Under the pieces are notes generated by a model, which was not told the DNA's origin, did no database searches, and saw only the letters and a list, made by a program, of their open reading frames with translations. From NCBI GenBank assembly GCA_030686115.1, contig CP131612.1, forward strand, positions 62,001 to 126,000: 64,000 nucleotides of DNA, given 5' to 3'. Source of the DNA: Psychrobacter cibarius. Its GTDB lineage: Bacteria > Pseudomonadota > Gammaproteobacteria > Pseudomonadales > Moraxellaceae. Both the position numbers and the translations under genes were made by a program. Positions 44,849 to 60,727 of this stretch are shown piece by piece (the stretch's first letter is position 1; every line of letters starts with the position of its first letter).

Positions 44849-47044
44849 TTAGATAACCTCGTGCGTCGTTTGGGCATTGCTTTCAATATTGGCAGCATCG
44901 TCATTTTTAGCGTTATCAAAACCGCTATGACGTAATAACGCATCAATGCTGGCGCTACGACCACGGAAGTTTTCAAAGTTGGTCTTGGCAGGGAAGCTAC
45001 CACCGACTGATAGGATAGTCTCACGGAAGGCTTTACCAGTGACAGGGTTAAAAATACCTTCTTCTTCAAACTTGCTAAAGGCATCTGCCGATAGCAACTC
45101 TGCCCATTTATACGAGTAATAACCTGCTGCATAGCCGCCTGCAAAGATATGACTAAAGCCGTTGGCAAAACGGTTGTAGTCAGGTGTCTGCATGATAGCA
45201 ATGTCGTCTCGAACGGTATTTAGCGTGGCTAATATACCGTCATAATCTAGCGCTGGCGTATGCGCATGAATCAATAAGTCAAACAGTGCGAATTCGATTT
45301 GACGTAGGGTTTGCATGCCGCTTTGGAAATTCTTCACCGCCAATAACGCTGCAAGTTTATCTTTAGGCAAGGGCGCACCCGTTTTGACGTGGCTACTAAT
45401 CAGCACAATACCTTCGGCATCCCACGCCCAGTTTTCCATAAATTGACTGGGCAGCTCGACCGCATCCCACTCAACGCCATTGACACCAGCGACATCACCG
45501 ACCGTCACTTGGGTTAATAAATGATGCAAGCCGTGACCAAACTCATGGAATAGAGTCAATACTTCATCATGCGTCAATAAGCTTGGTTTGCCATCGAGGG
45601 CAGGGGTAAAGTTACCCACCATAAAGCATACTGGTAGCTGCTGATGATTTTGTTCACTGTAAGTATAACGTGACTGAAAACCACTCATCCAAGCGCCGCC
45701 GCGTTTACCACTGCGTGCAAATAAGTCAAAGTAAAAGCCACCAAGCAAGTTATCATCAGCATCAAACAACTGATAAAAGCTGACATCGTCGTGCCAGCGT
45801 GATACGGATTCACTTTGCTCTTGGACTTTGATACCGTACAGACGCTCAACGATGGCAAATAATCCGCTAATCACTTTTGGTAAGGGAAAGTACGGGCGGA
45901 TTTCTTCTTGCGATAAGCTGAACTCGCTTTGTTTGACTTTTTCAGCGATATACGCACTGTCCCATGCCTGTAACTCATCTATACCATAATCTTGCGCATA
46001 CTTTTGCAACTGAGCTAAGTCTTGCTTAGCCGCTGGAGTTGCTTGCGTGGCCAAACTCCGTAAAAAGGTTTCTACTTCTGCCACGTTATCTGCCATTTTA
46101 GTCGATAGTGAGACTTCTGCATAATTGTCAAAACCCAATAGCTTGGCTTTTTGCTCACGTAGTTGCAGGATTTGACTCATGATATCGGCGTTATTTAGCG
46201 ACTCACCTTTGGCATTGGTATGCGCATCAAACTCAGAAGCACGCGTGACATAAGCGCGGTATAGGGTCTCACGCAGCTCGCGGTCATCCGCATGGGTCAT
46301 GATGGCAAGATAAACAGGGATGTTTAAGCTTGCCACGTAATAAGGACTTGGCAACGCATCGAATTCTACTTGCGTAAGCGTACCGTTGGCAAGCGCGCGC
46401 GCTTTATACTGTTCGCCAGCATCTGCGAGTAGCGCCAGTCCACTTTCGGTTAGACCTGCTAATTGCTCTTGCTGCAGCGGTAAGGCATAAGCTTGGGTGG
46501 CATCCAATACGTTATCTGAAAAGGTCGCTGATAAGGTAGAAAGCTGACTTTGAATAGCTGCAAACTTTTCCTGTTTATCTTTTGGTAATGCGACACCTGA
46601 CAGCTCAAAACTGCGTAGCGCAAGCTCAATAGCCCGCGCTCGTGCAGGCTCAAGCGCCGCAAAAAATGCTGTGTCATTGACGATAGTTTGATAACGATTA
46701 AATAGCGGCTGATGCTGTCCCACTCGTGTGCTATAAGCAGATAATTTAGGTAGCAGTTCATGATGGACATGACGAATGTCGTCATTGCTCATGACGCTAT
46801 TCAGGTGCGATAAAATGCCCCAACTGCGATCCAATGCCAGATTAATATGATCAAAAGTCATCACATCGGCCAGCGCTTGCTCAGCACTGATATTAGCAGC
46901 GCTATCATGGTTGTCAGTATCTGCACTCATCTCATCTAAAAATGTATTGGCTGCATCGATGGCACTGATGACATGGCTTTGTAATGTACTTGGCGAAACG
47001 TTGTCAAAATCGACAAGGCGTAAATCTGCAGGAAGGGTTTTCAT
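44849..47044 (-). CDS. prlC: Oligopeptidase A (M3 family)
   Basis: A 731-residue cytosolic zinc metallopeptidase degrading oligopeptides such as cleaved signal peptides. The active site is LFHEFGHGLHHLLTQV (HEXXH), with the downstream Glu in VELPSQFMENWAW. Other family landmarks: FRGRSASIDALLRHSGF at the C-terminus and YYSYKWAELLSADAF. It is ~50 residues longer than E. coli PrlC (680), mainly through N-terminal polar inserts and an acidic Asn-rich tail. It is immediately followed by the YheV-like gene. Confidence 0.94.
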   Translation of the reverse strand: MKTLPADLRLVDFDNVSPSTLQSHVISAIDAANTFLDEMSADTDNHDSAANISAEQALADVMTFDHINLALDRSWGILSHLNSVMSNDDIRHVHHELLPKLSAYSTRVGQHQPLFNRYQTIVNDTAFFAALEPARARAIELALRSFELSGVALPKDKQEKFAAIQSQLSTLSATFSDNVLDATQAYALPLQQEQLAGLTESGLALLADAGEQYKARALANGTLTQVEFDALPSPYYVASLNIPVYLAIMTHADDRELRETLYRAYVTRASEFDAHTNAKGESLNNADIMSQILQLREQKAKLLGFDNYAEVSLSTKMADNVAEVETFLRSLATQATPAAKQDLAQLQKYAQDYGIDELQAWDSAYIAEKVKQSEFSLSQEEIRPYFPLPKVISGLFAIVERLYGIKVQEQSESVSRWHDDVSFYQLFDADDNLLGGFYFDLFARSGKRGGAWMSGFQSRYTYSEQNHQQLPVCFMVGNFTPALDGKPSLLTHDEVLTLFHEFGHGLHHLLTQVTVGDVAGVNGVEWDAVELPSQFMENWAWDAEGIVLISSHVKTGAPLPKDKLAALLAVKNFQSGMQTLRQIEFALFDLLIHAHTPALDYDGILATLNTVRDDIAIMQTPDYNRFANGFSHIFAGGYAAGYYSYKWAELLSADAFSKFEEEGIFNPVTGKAFRETILSVGGSFPAKTNFENFRGRSASIDALLRHSGFDNAKNDDAANIESNAQTTHEVI

Positions 47045-47500
47045 AAAAGTATCCGATATCTGATCGTAGTGAATGAATTATTATTGAGTAAACGTCGCTT
47101 TATATAAGAGATTGGCTTGCCGTGACATTTAGAACGTTATTAGCTTTGTGTTATTTTTCTTTTTTTGCTGTCTTATCGATAAGCTATATAAAAGATGGGT
47201 TCGTTTGACGAAAATGCAACCTAATCATTGACTATATAAAAAGTGAAGCGAGAAGATAGTGAATATTAAACGGGTTTAAAGCCGATCAGCTAGACTTTTA
47301 GAACAATACAGAGTGTTCTACTTACAAAGCGCTATCATTTGCTTGCAAATTAACCCTACAGCGAGTGAGGTTTGACTGCTAGCATCAAGGCAATGGAATA
47401 GAAATATTAAGTGCTGCTGATAGTAAAAACTATGAATCAGTTGATTAATAGTAAAAATCACAATGTTAAAAGTAAATGATAATAAAACAAGGAGCAATAA
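47045..47500. other. Long leader region upstream of the Balon-like gene
   Basis: 456 bp between divergent genes, AT-rich. It contains a perfect inverted repeat TAGAACA-N8-TGTTCTA (47299-47320), which could be an operator or a hairpin. A TTGACT at 47372 lacks a good -10. No ORF. Confidence 0.55.
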
Positions 47501-48613
47501 ATGAAAGCGACTCTCAAAAGTTTACGTGAAACCAAAGCCAACCCTGCGGTTAGTATCTTTGTTAAGACTCATCGCGAGCATCCTGCTAATGATCAAGATC
47601 CCATTGCCCTGAAGAACCAATTAAAAGTGGCTGAAGAACGCTTAACCAACGAATACGATAAGCGCACAGCGACTACAATACTTGATAAGATTCATGATAA
47701 GACCAAAGAGCTAAATCACAACTTAAATCTTGATACCTTAGCTATTTTTGCCAGTACCGACGATGTGCAAGTTATCCGTATGCCGATTGACACCACGGAG
47801 CGTGTGGTGATTTCACATCGTTTTGCGACTCGAGATTTGGTGCGTGATATGGCAAGTGCGGTGCACTATTACACCTTGGTGCTCACTCGTGATAATGCTC
47901 GCTTGATTGAAGCGTCTAATGATCGTGTGGTGAGAGAGTTCGATAAGGACGATGACTTACAAAAAAACATGGATAATATTCCATTTCCTATTGAAAACAA
48001 TGGTCTATATACGACAGGCGACGGTGGCTCAGATCGCTCATCTAATAATGAAAGCAGCTATCTAAAAGAGTTTTTTAATCAGGTGGATAAAAGTGTCCAA
48101 GAGCTGTGGGGTGAGCATAAAATGCCTTTGGTTGTCGTTGGCGATGCTAAAAATATCGGCTACTATAAAGAAGTTTGTGATCGTCCAGACAACATCATTG
48201 CCACAGTGTCAAATGCGACCAATCTAGAAGATGGTAGTGCTCAGCATATTATCAATAGTGTGCAAGAGGCGGTGGAAGGCTATCGTACATCACTGCATCA
48301 AGCAGCCATGGGTGAGATTGATAAAGCACGCGGTGCTAATATGTTGCAAACAGATCTACAAGAAGTCTACCGCAGTGCCTTCCAAGGTGCAGGCGAGACA
48401 CTTTATGTCCGTCGTGGTTATATACAATCGGCTAAAATTGATGAAAAGGCACAGACTTTGAGTCCTGCAGATGATGCGGCTTCAGAAGGTGTCACCGATG
48501 ATGCCATTGGCGAAATCATTGAGCATGTCATTCATAATGGTGGCGAAGCAGTATTTATGCCACAAGATATTATGGGTGAAGATCAACCAATTGCTTTGGT
48601 GACACGCTATTAG
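47501..48613 (+). CDS. Balon-like ribosome hibernation factor (bacterial aeRF1-family protein)
   Basis: A 370-residue protein I recognise as the AOC03_06830/Balon family. Balon is a distant homologue of archaeal/eukaryotic RF1 and Pelota found on dormant ribosomes of cold-shocked Psychrobacter urativorans, where it occupies the A site with EF-Tu (recalled, not looked up). Seen here: an N-terminal domain (~1-110), a middle segment VHYYTLVLTRDNARLIEASNDRVVREF, a poorly conserved Gly/Ser-rich loop (GDGGSDRSSNNESS) where release factors have other elements, and a C-terminal eRF1-like end EAVFMPQDIMGEDQPIALVTRY. No GGQ motif, so no peptide release is expected. AAGGAGC precedes the ATG; the gene is monocistronic with its own terminator. 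Confidence 0.78.
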   Translation: MKATLKSLRETKANPAVSIFVKTHREHPANDQDPIALKNQLKVAEERLTNEYDKRTATTILDKIHDKTKELNHNLNLDTLAIFASTDDVQVIRMPIDTTERVVISHRFATRDLVRDMASAVHYYTLVLTRDNARLIEASNDRVVREFDKDDDLQKNMDNIPFPIENNGLYTTGDGGSDRSSNNESSYLKEFFNQVDKSVQELWGEHKMPLVVVGDAKNIGYYKEVCDRPDNIIATVSNATNLEDGSAQHIINSVQEAVEGYRTSLHQAAMGEIDKARGANMLQTDLQEVYRSAFQGAGETLYVRRGYIQSAKIDEKAQTLSPADDAASEGVTDDAIGEIIEHVIHNGGEAVFMPQDIMGEDQPIALVTRY

Positions 48614-48683
48614 TTGATAGATAGTGCCTATTGATGACAATCCTTTGCGAATTCGCCATTGATAGAAGATAGGTATAATATGG

Positions 48684-48717
48684 GAGCATTGGTTCGATAA
48701 GAATCAATGCTCTTTTT
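48684..48717 (+). terminator. Terminator after the Balon-like gene
   Basis: A 12-bp stem: GAGCATTG (48684-48691) with CAATGCTC (48705-48712), continued by GTTC/GAAT to a GATAA loop, followed by TTTTT. Confidence 0.85.
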
Positions 48718-48777: not shown

Positions 48778-49530
48778 ATGATGCGAAATAACATACCAAA
48801 TACTCTCATGCTATTTAGCGTCACAGCAATGATAGCCTTTAGCTCCAGTCTCAGTATGGCAGAGACAGATGTGAATAATATATCTGTGAGCCATTTATCA
48901 TGGGGTCAATTGCCGCCTTCTATTCAAAACTATTATCAAATAGACTCTAAAAAAAATAAAATGAGGCTAAAGACCAAAGATATTGTTGCTATTCGTTCTT
49001 GGATTGGCACAGTAGGAGAACAGTATTTGGTTCAATTACAGCGTTTCAATTCAACCAATAGCCCTGACGAGCCAGCAGGAGAGGTCTTCACGCATTTATA
49101 TGTTATAGATGAACAAGAGGCTTTACGTGTATGGCAAATATATGATTATGTACCCTGCGATGGGTTAGATGTAATCGCAGAATTCGCTAAAAACACCGCC
49201 GTAGTGACTGATATTAATAATAACGGTGTTATCGAAGTGAGTGTGCCTTATTATCTCGGTTGTCGTGGTGACGTAAGTTATGATGAGATGAAAGTAATCA
49301 TGTACGAAGGGCAGCAAAAATTTGCTGTACGTGGTAACTCTGCAATTTGTAACGCCAAGACAGACCAGCCAGTTGATGCTACTGGTTATTACGGTGGTGA
49401 CTACAAGATTGATGAAAAATTACTACAGCAATCAGCGCTATCAGCTACTCAAAAATCAGTATTTAGGCGTCACTTGCAATCAGTGTGGCGAGATAACCAA
49501 TGTTCCATTTATTTTAAGTATGATGACTAA
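48778..49530 (+). CDS. Secreted protein of unknown function
   Basis: A 250-residue protein with an N-terminal signal peptide (hydrophobic ~9-26, cleavage probably after SLSMA). The mature part is mixed alpha/beta with four cysteines (positions in VPCDGLD, YLGCRGDV, AICNAKT, DNQCSIYF), likely two periplasmic disulfides. The segment TDINNNGVIEVSVPYYLGC followed by MKVIMYEGQQKFAVRG recalls a family labelled M949_RS01915-type surface polysaccharide proteins, but I am not sure. Its 3' end overlaps the start of the next gene. Confidence 0.7.
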   Translation: MMRNNIPNTLMLFSVTAMIAFSSSLSMAETDVNNISVSHLSWGQLPPSIQNYYQIDSKKNKMRLKTKDIVAIRSWIGTVGEQYLVQLQRFNSTNSPDEPAGEVFTHLYVIDEQEALRVWQIYDYVPCDGLDVIAEFAKNTAVVTDINNNGVIEVSVPYYLGCRGDVSYDEMKVIMYEGQQKFAVRGNSAICNAKTDQPVDATGYYGGDYKIDEKLLQQSALSATQKSVFRRHLQSVWRDNQCSIYFKYDD

Positions 49531-60217: not shown

Positions 60218-60395
60218 TCAGCTCATGAGCATCAGCCTACGACCAAAAAACATAGTCGCGGATGATGCTCATCAAACGTTGGACGCAGCTTTATATCAGT
60301 CTTCACTACTTAATAGTACATCAGGCACATTAAGGGAGTAATGAGGATAAAAAAGGCATTTCTGCACGTCCTTTGCCATAAATAACAAAGTGCTT

Positions 60396-60524
60396 AAGAC
60401 TTCCCTGCGTCGGTACTAACCGCATCAGGTTCGGCGGGTGATCTCTCAGCGAATGTATAAAGGCGACTACTTTAATAAAGCAAGCTTAAAAGTGAGTCGA
60501 TAATACACCGCACCCCGAGTCTGT
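60396..60524 (-). promoter_or_regulatory. TPP riboswitch (THI box)
   Basis: Read on the minus strand: GACT-C-GGGGTG (ends at 60510), then a long ~60-nt extended P3 arm, CTGAGAGATCACCC, GAACCTGATGCGGTTAGTACC, and GCAGGGAAGTC closing P1. All conserved blocks of the thiamine pyrophosphate aptamer are present and it precedes thiC. Binding of TPP would lower thiC expression. I see no classic terminator with U-tract after it, so control may be at translation via the hairpin near the thiC start. Confidence 0.93.
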
Positions 60525-60727
60525 CAGTGTTGTAAATCAACTTAATACTAACAAAGTTCTGCAATGAGGGCTAATGATATTTAGATGAAAATATCAGGCT
60601 TTGAGTTTGAGGTTCGATGTTTTTATGAGAACGACTCTAGAGTACCAGTGATTGAAATCACTTGATATTACTGAGCTGTAGATAGCTTATCTAAATATTA
60701 TGTAAAGCGAATGAAAGATTCTGGAGG

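Follow-up and report, generated by a model that had tools for sequence, protein, structure and literature searches.

Among ribosome hibernation factors, the best described relative of the protein considered here is Balon of Psychrobacter urativorans (AOC03_06830; PDB 8RD8, 8RDV and 8RDW), which was reported on ribosomes after ice shock and, late in stationary phase, on almost every one (PMC10901736). On the ribosome, Balon contacts the decoding centre with an HP motif that stays at a distance from the mRNA, the peptidyl-transferase centre is left inert, bL27 is trapped, and EF-Tu is bound in its GDP form (PMC10901736). The evidence for these steps comes from P. urativorans and, for part of them, from the mycobacterial homologues; the knockout phenotypes described for P. 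arcticus were modest (PMC10901736). The mycobacterial proteins Msmeg1130 and Rv2629 (PDB 8V9J, 8V9L and 8V9K) bind the A site, and their genes are hypoxia-induced (PMC10901736). The aeRF1/eRF1 and Pelota/Dom34 proteins belong to the same superfamily. As for regulation, the available portions of the Balon paper do not state the trigger that switches balon on, and the word "promoter" does not occur in its main text (PMC10901736). Judging by title, the papers retrieved in our literature searches include no study of balon regulation in Psychrobacter and none that maps transcription starts in that genus.

The locus described here lies in a 64,000-nucleotide stretch of DNA from Psychrobacter cibarius, hereafter the window. 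Positions 47501-48613 on the plus strand encode Balon, a protein that is already known and ordinary for Psychrobacter. The protein adds nothing new in kind; the new part is an element upstream of its gene.

The balon gene and its product

A preliminary description of this DNA had placed an open reading frame at 47501-48613 (plus strand), assigned its product to the Balon family and noted that the product lacks GGQ, and all three points were borne out. The frame is intact over 370 codons, with an ATG start and a TAG stop, and its translation is a 370-aa protein of 41.4 kDa, annotated here as an aeRF1-superfamily ribosome hibernation factor of baeRF family 3. An AAGGAG ribosome-binding site (47489-47494, plus strand) is situated 6 nt upstream of the ATG, within a conserved stretch at 47463-47500. 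In the profile search that the preliminary description had proposed, the best matches fell in the Balon/baeRF clan: the NCBIfam equivalog NF052287, "AOC03_06830 family ribosome hibernation factor", matched at 524.1 bits (cut-off 330) across profile positions 1-361 of 361, and Pfam baeRF_family3 (PF18845) matched at 115.6 bits. Against the P. urativorans chain 8rd8_B the product scored 687.7 bits, its residues 1-370 running colinear with residues 1-369. Full-length identity to the three solved P. urativorans entries was 81-82% by Foldseek, with lengths within one residue of each other. The solved protein nevertheless comes from another species and differs at about 18% of residues, and ribosome binding by the product studied here is presumed by homology.

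A single His-Pro occurs in the product, at residues 27-28, which is the same place as in P. urativorans Balon; across an alignment of 44 proteins P28 was invariant and H27 was kept in at least 90%. We infer that this pair corresponds to the decoding-centre motif described in the Balon paper (PMC10901736). String searches of the 370-aa translation found neither NIKS nor GGQ, the peptidyl-hydrolase motif of class-I release factors (aeRF1/eRF1). In contrast to aeRF1/eRF1 and Pelota/Dom34, to which it was 9-17% identical in the RF1 and Pelota rows, the product lacks both motifs and, by homology, would act independently of mRNA while bound to EF-Tu in its GDP form.

When an AlphaFold model of the product was searched with Foldseek, rows 1-5 were P. 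urativorans Balon (three entries) and M. smegmatis Msmeg1130 (two). From row 6 on the matches were mostly archaeal and eukaryotic RF1, beginning with a chain from a human ribosome complex, aRF1 from archaea and human eRF1; Rv2629 was in row 20 and Pelota in row 25. The mycobacterial proteins were given the same fold with a probability of 1.00, although they were only 11-14% identical to the balon product. The model was built from a shallow alignment of 44 Psychrobacter proteins, had a mean pLDDT of 58.4 and reached good confidence for no part but the middle domain. No TM-score, normalised to the model, exceeded 0.46, a value obtained, with large rmsd, even against Balon. For the protein as modelled, the Foldseek ranking therefore supports superfamily membership and does not measure domain arrangement. 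Because the model is weak outside its middle domain, the three-domain, aeRF1-like fold predicted for the product rests on its identity to the solved structure. A second protein search again found close relatives among the best 120 of its 254 matches. Matches to Cry6Aa, eS12 and inositol-phosphate synthase, at E values of 0.18 and above, were taken as chance. NCBI has already given the name Balon to relatives of the product. Public records still label Balon chains, including PDB 8rd8_B, as "Methyl-accepting chemotaxis protein" and one homologue as "alkylhydroperoxidase ... YurZ", and the family is hidden behind such names.

All of the 100 Psychrobacter genomes drawn contained balon. It was a single match in 98 of them, one of which (G032) had a partial match (1-173); G059 and G077 contained two and three balon pieces, respectively, with in-frame stops, and these genomes were 85% and 84% complete. 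At the family level, 89 of the 199 genomes drawn exceeded the NCBIfam cut-off, and matches at E values up to 0.001 were found in 92 genomes from 5 of 16 genera. The P. cibarius genome itself encodes one baeRF3 protein. As with P. urativorans Balon, it co-occurs with RaiA: one RaiA/HPF match was found in the genome (PF02482, 87.4 bits against a cut-off of 23.7), whereas a search for RMF there gave no match. Nothing in the genome exceeded the RpoS cut-off of 378.7 bits, the two sigma-family matches scoring 282 and 145.8 bits. Outside the window, some 1.1 kb separate the RaiA/HPF gene from a gene for a sigma factor (G000:C1:321790-322071 and G000:C1:323180-323983), a 357-codon frame that appears RpoH-like by its length.

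Transcription unit and neighbouring genes

On one side, balon is flanked by a divergent gene for a prlC/oligopeptidase A-like M3 peptidase (44849-47044, minus strand; Peptidase_M3 PF01432, 486 bits). The preliminary description had given balon a 456-bp leader. The gap does measure exactly 456 bp (47045-47500), but since prlC starts at 47044 on the minus strand, it is a divergent prlC-balon intergenic region and not a 5' UTR; the 5' UTR of balon is probably about 110 nt long. Divergent prlC was found beside balon in 80 of 80 Psychrobacter loci (L001-L030 and L032-L081, a set in which some genomes are represented twice) and in two further loci of the genus.

On the other side, 68 nt past the stop codon, an intrinsic terminator is situated at 48682-48714 (plus strand), comprising a stem of 14 pairs (GAGCATTGGTTC/GAATCAATGCTC), a loop of 5 and a T-run. 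Two terminator-like sites were found in the 2-kb stretch, compared to 0.9 +/- 0.9 in shuffled sequence. A simple scan found a terminator after balon in 37 of 43 diverse relatives, and in L033, L040 and L064, half of the remaining six, one can be made out by eye. The view that balon stands alone with its own terminator was thus upheld, with divergent prlC at one end and the hairpin at the other, and the terminators here and in relatives support a separate balon transcription unit. The stem word belongs to the balon locus. We rejected its reading as a genome-wide or genus repeat, which its apparent conservation among relatives had suggested, AGCATTGGTTC occurring in 3 copies in the genome compared to 4 for the reversed control; the count of GAGCATTGGTTC within the window (9 occurrences at up to 2 mismatches, where 5.8 +/- 2.2 were expected) also spoke against a repeat. 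Among 28 terminator hairpins the left arm took 6 forms and the right arm 12, an asymmetry that is no evidence because the hairpins were picked by a left-arm match and one loop length.

Beyond the terminator, a 250-aa open reading frame (48778-49530, plus strand) had no Pfam match and was present in 12 of the 80 Psychrobacter loci. An endonuclease/exonuclease gene further on was found at varying distance in most of the 80, many of these loci being too short to show it. Elsewhere in the window, a TPP riboswitch at 60385-60527 (minus strand) scored 58.1 bits against an Rfam gathering score of 54.3.

A conserved element in the prlC-balon gap

The intergenic region contains a 28-bp element, TTACAAA-N5-ATCATTTGCTTGCAAA (47322-47349, plus strand), that is conserved in the genus. 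A pattern-free scan, in which every 24-mer of the 456 bp was compared to 42 other spacers, left three blocks exceeding the largest median of 10 shuffle rounds (15): a strong one towards balon at 47313-47371, with medians up to 21 of 24 and the element as its core, 47463-47500 (15.5-17), and a weak block at 47177-47208 (15.5-16). The element pattern had no match in 100 shuffles and occurs once in its own genome. At up to 3 mismatches it was found in 88 of the 100 Psychrobacter genomes, with 90 matches in total compared to one for the reversed control. Of these matches, 88 lay 131-512 bp upstream of balon and on the balon strand, one per genome; the other two were 3-mismatch matches elsewhere. 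A search of the named genome collection with the exact pattern, one position being widened to A or G, returned 62 stretches, all titled Psychrobacter. Balon followed downstream on the same strand in 61 of these, and in the remaining one it falls outside the stretch. One of the 62 (L110) is from P. urativorans; its Balon shares 87% identity with the solved protein, which shows that the structure was obtained from a different strain. Eighteen balon loci from other genera of the Moraxellaceae showed no full element, the best agreement being 16 of 23 positions. Three loci of another genus of the family (L086, L088 and L102), in which prlC was not found beside balon, have balon preceded by TTTTTACAAAGACTTACAAA, a tandem TTACAAA word. 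The information content of the column consensus was 1.27 bits compared to 0.23-0.24 (29 of 43 rows), a figure biased upward because the rows were chosen by a pattern, one with the wrong spacing to the -10 part, and the L061 row is not the element; the claim of conservation is carried by the pattern-free scan and the genome counts.

Within the element, the half-sites TTACAAA ... TTGCAAA (CTTACAAA and CTTGCAAA) lie 21 bp apart, about two helical turns, and are followed by a putative, non-consensus -35 region and then an extended -10-like part with TAGCAT, reading towards balon. The element can accordingly be read as a putative activator-binding region at about -70 to -43. A conserved segment, ACCCTACAG (47353-47361, plus strand; ungapped column consensus), would then lie in the -35 region, and TGCTAGCAT (47377-47385, plus strand; ungapped column consensus tTG.TAg.aT) would be the extended -10-like part, with transcription predicted to start at about 47391-47393. 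Since half-sites, non-consensus -35 and extended -10 lie in the layout of an activator-dependent promoter, we propose an activator-dependent, RpoS-independent balon promoter about 110 nt upstream of the ATG, a reading of the sequence to which we give about an even chance. A scan for sigma-70 promoters gave no hit at 47377-47385. Among 34 element-bearing loci the narrow core matched with N14 in 23 and with N16 in L060; ten had no match, including the P. cibarius locus itself, which reads CTGCTA.

Alternatively, the element might be the promoter or operator of prlC on the minus strand, or an operator shared by the two divergent genes, and have nothing specific to do with balon. Synteny cannot part the two genes, as prlC is divergent in 80 of 80 loci, and a shared operator would be kept as well. 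Against this, a separate, weakly conserved block lies nearer prlC (47177-47208, no strand assigned; median 15.5-16 of 24) and is itself a candidate prlC promoter. The -10-like part is nearer balon and oriented in its direction, no good minus-strand -10 could be made out by eye, and of the seven loci in the clade without the element, six retain the core next to balon. On balance we consider a role in prlC expression unlikely, though it is the strongest competitor of the balon promoter. A function as RNA, whether a structured 5' leader, a thermometer or a small RNA, seems much less probable still. The position between the genes would suit it and cold-responsive leaders are known in other bacteria, but the fold energy of 47300-47420 was equal to that of shuffled sequence (z 0.12), the region had no Rfam match at the gathering score, and the distance to the ATG varies from 131 to 512 bp, as might be expected of a promoter. 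A structured RNA leader was rejected on the first two of these grounds.

Genomes without the element and the proposed role of Balon

Twelve of the 100 Psychrobacter genomes were without the element at up to 3 mismatches. By eye, the element is present in G031 with one base fewer between its halves, a variant with 4 mismatches occurs in G084 and one with 5 in G014, and G021 has none. Seven of the twelve (L033, L040, L043, L045, L049, L050 and L064) form one clade, with a support of 1.0, in a tree built from three concatenated proteins. The core TAYRG-N16-TTGNTA is retained in six of these seven, compared to 2.3% of shuffles. L033, L040 and L049 share another motif, TTGTTACATAACAA, upstream of the core promoter-like part. 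The Balons of P. lutiphocae, P. pasteurii, P. piechaudii and Psychrobacter sp. FDAARGOS_221 are identical over 370 positions to members of this clade. As the element-bearing loci L060 and L063, together with L057, branch off before the clade at nodes with a support of 1.0, a loss is the more economical explanation; L036 and L038 are weakly placed (0.63-0.91). In a tree of Balon alone the seven loci fall deeper inside the genus, beside L039 and L054, which again leads to loss. At least one other, partial loss is indicated by a genome outside the 100 (G213, L104), in which the distal half is missing and the proximal half and core are kept, since it sits among element-bearing species in the tree.

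The host-associated, warm-growing P. lutiphocae suggested that loss of the element might be an adaptation to 37 °C. The available portions of Welter et al. (PMC8546975) describe a basal Psychrobacter clade made up solely of strains that grow at 37 °C, and list P. pacificensis and P. faecalis among strains able to grow at that temperature; the main text of that paper makes no mention of P. pasteurii or P. piechaudii. Genomes titled P. pacificensis and P. faecalis carry the element (L113 and L133). Because these two species grow at 37 °C and yet keep it, there is no simple link to temperature, and the idea of an adaptation to 37 °C was not upheld.

Combining these observations, it is conceivable, if somewhat short of an even bet, that Psychrobacter has a dedicated activator-dependent hibernation promoter (TTACAAA-N5-ATCATTTGCTTGCAAA with ACCNTAYAG and an extended -10), placed essentially once per genome before balon and operating without RpoS. 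Such a promoter would be older than most of the genus and would have been lost in the one clade that holds the P. lutiphocae Balon, the core promoter being left behind, as if one layer of dormancy control had been given up. Our estimate is unaffected by the temperature result, as the dedicated promoter rests on promoter inference.

Taken as a whole, the locus is very probably best explained as a gene for a Balon hibernation factor that is transcribed alone and has its own terminator, the promoter being the less certain part. Given that the product is 81-82% identical to P. urativorans Balon and comes from the same genus, it would be expected to work by the same mechanism. In a chilled or starved cell, Balon would enter the A site of vacant or still-translating ribosomes, where the His-Pro of its N-domain would contact the decoding centre, clear of the mRNA. 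The middle domain, which has no GGQ, would lie next to the peptidyl-transferase centre but leave the peptide unreleased, and the C-domain would hold GDP-bound EF-Tu, Balon acting jointly with RaiA. It is highly improbable that the product is instead a bacterial aeRF1-superfamily protein that acts in release or rescue by freeing stalled peptides. The fold matches do include aRF1, eRF1 and Pelota, and rescue roles were put forward for baeRF proteins by Burroughs and Aravind (PMC6514570), but the product has neither GGQ nor NIKS, the matching NCBIfam equivalog is a hibernation factor, and the 81-82% identical protein was solved on ribosomes with peptidyl-tRNA kept (PMC10901736). Transcription of balon as a hibernation factor would proceed alone and end at its own terminator. 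Induction in the cold or in stationary phase, if transcriptional, would have to run through the putative activator, because no RpoS scored above the curated cut-off in the genome.

The upstream element, common to most of the Psychrobacter genomes searched and rare elsewhere in them, may be the stress switch of balon. An element of 28 bp at a single locus, which most of the genus has and one clade lacks, offers a handle on how balon is switched, and might help to identify a regulator of ribosome hibernation in bacteria that have no RpoS.
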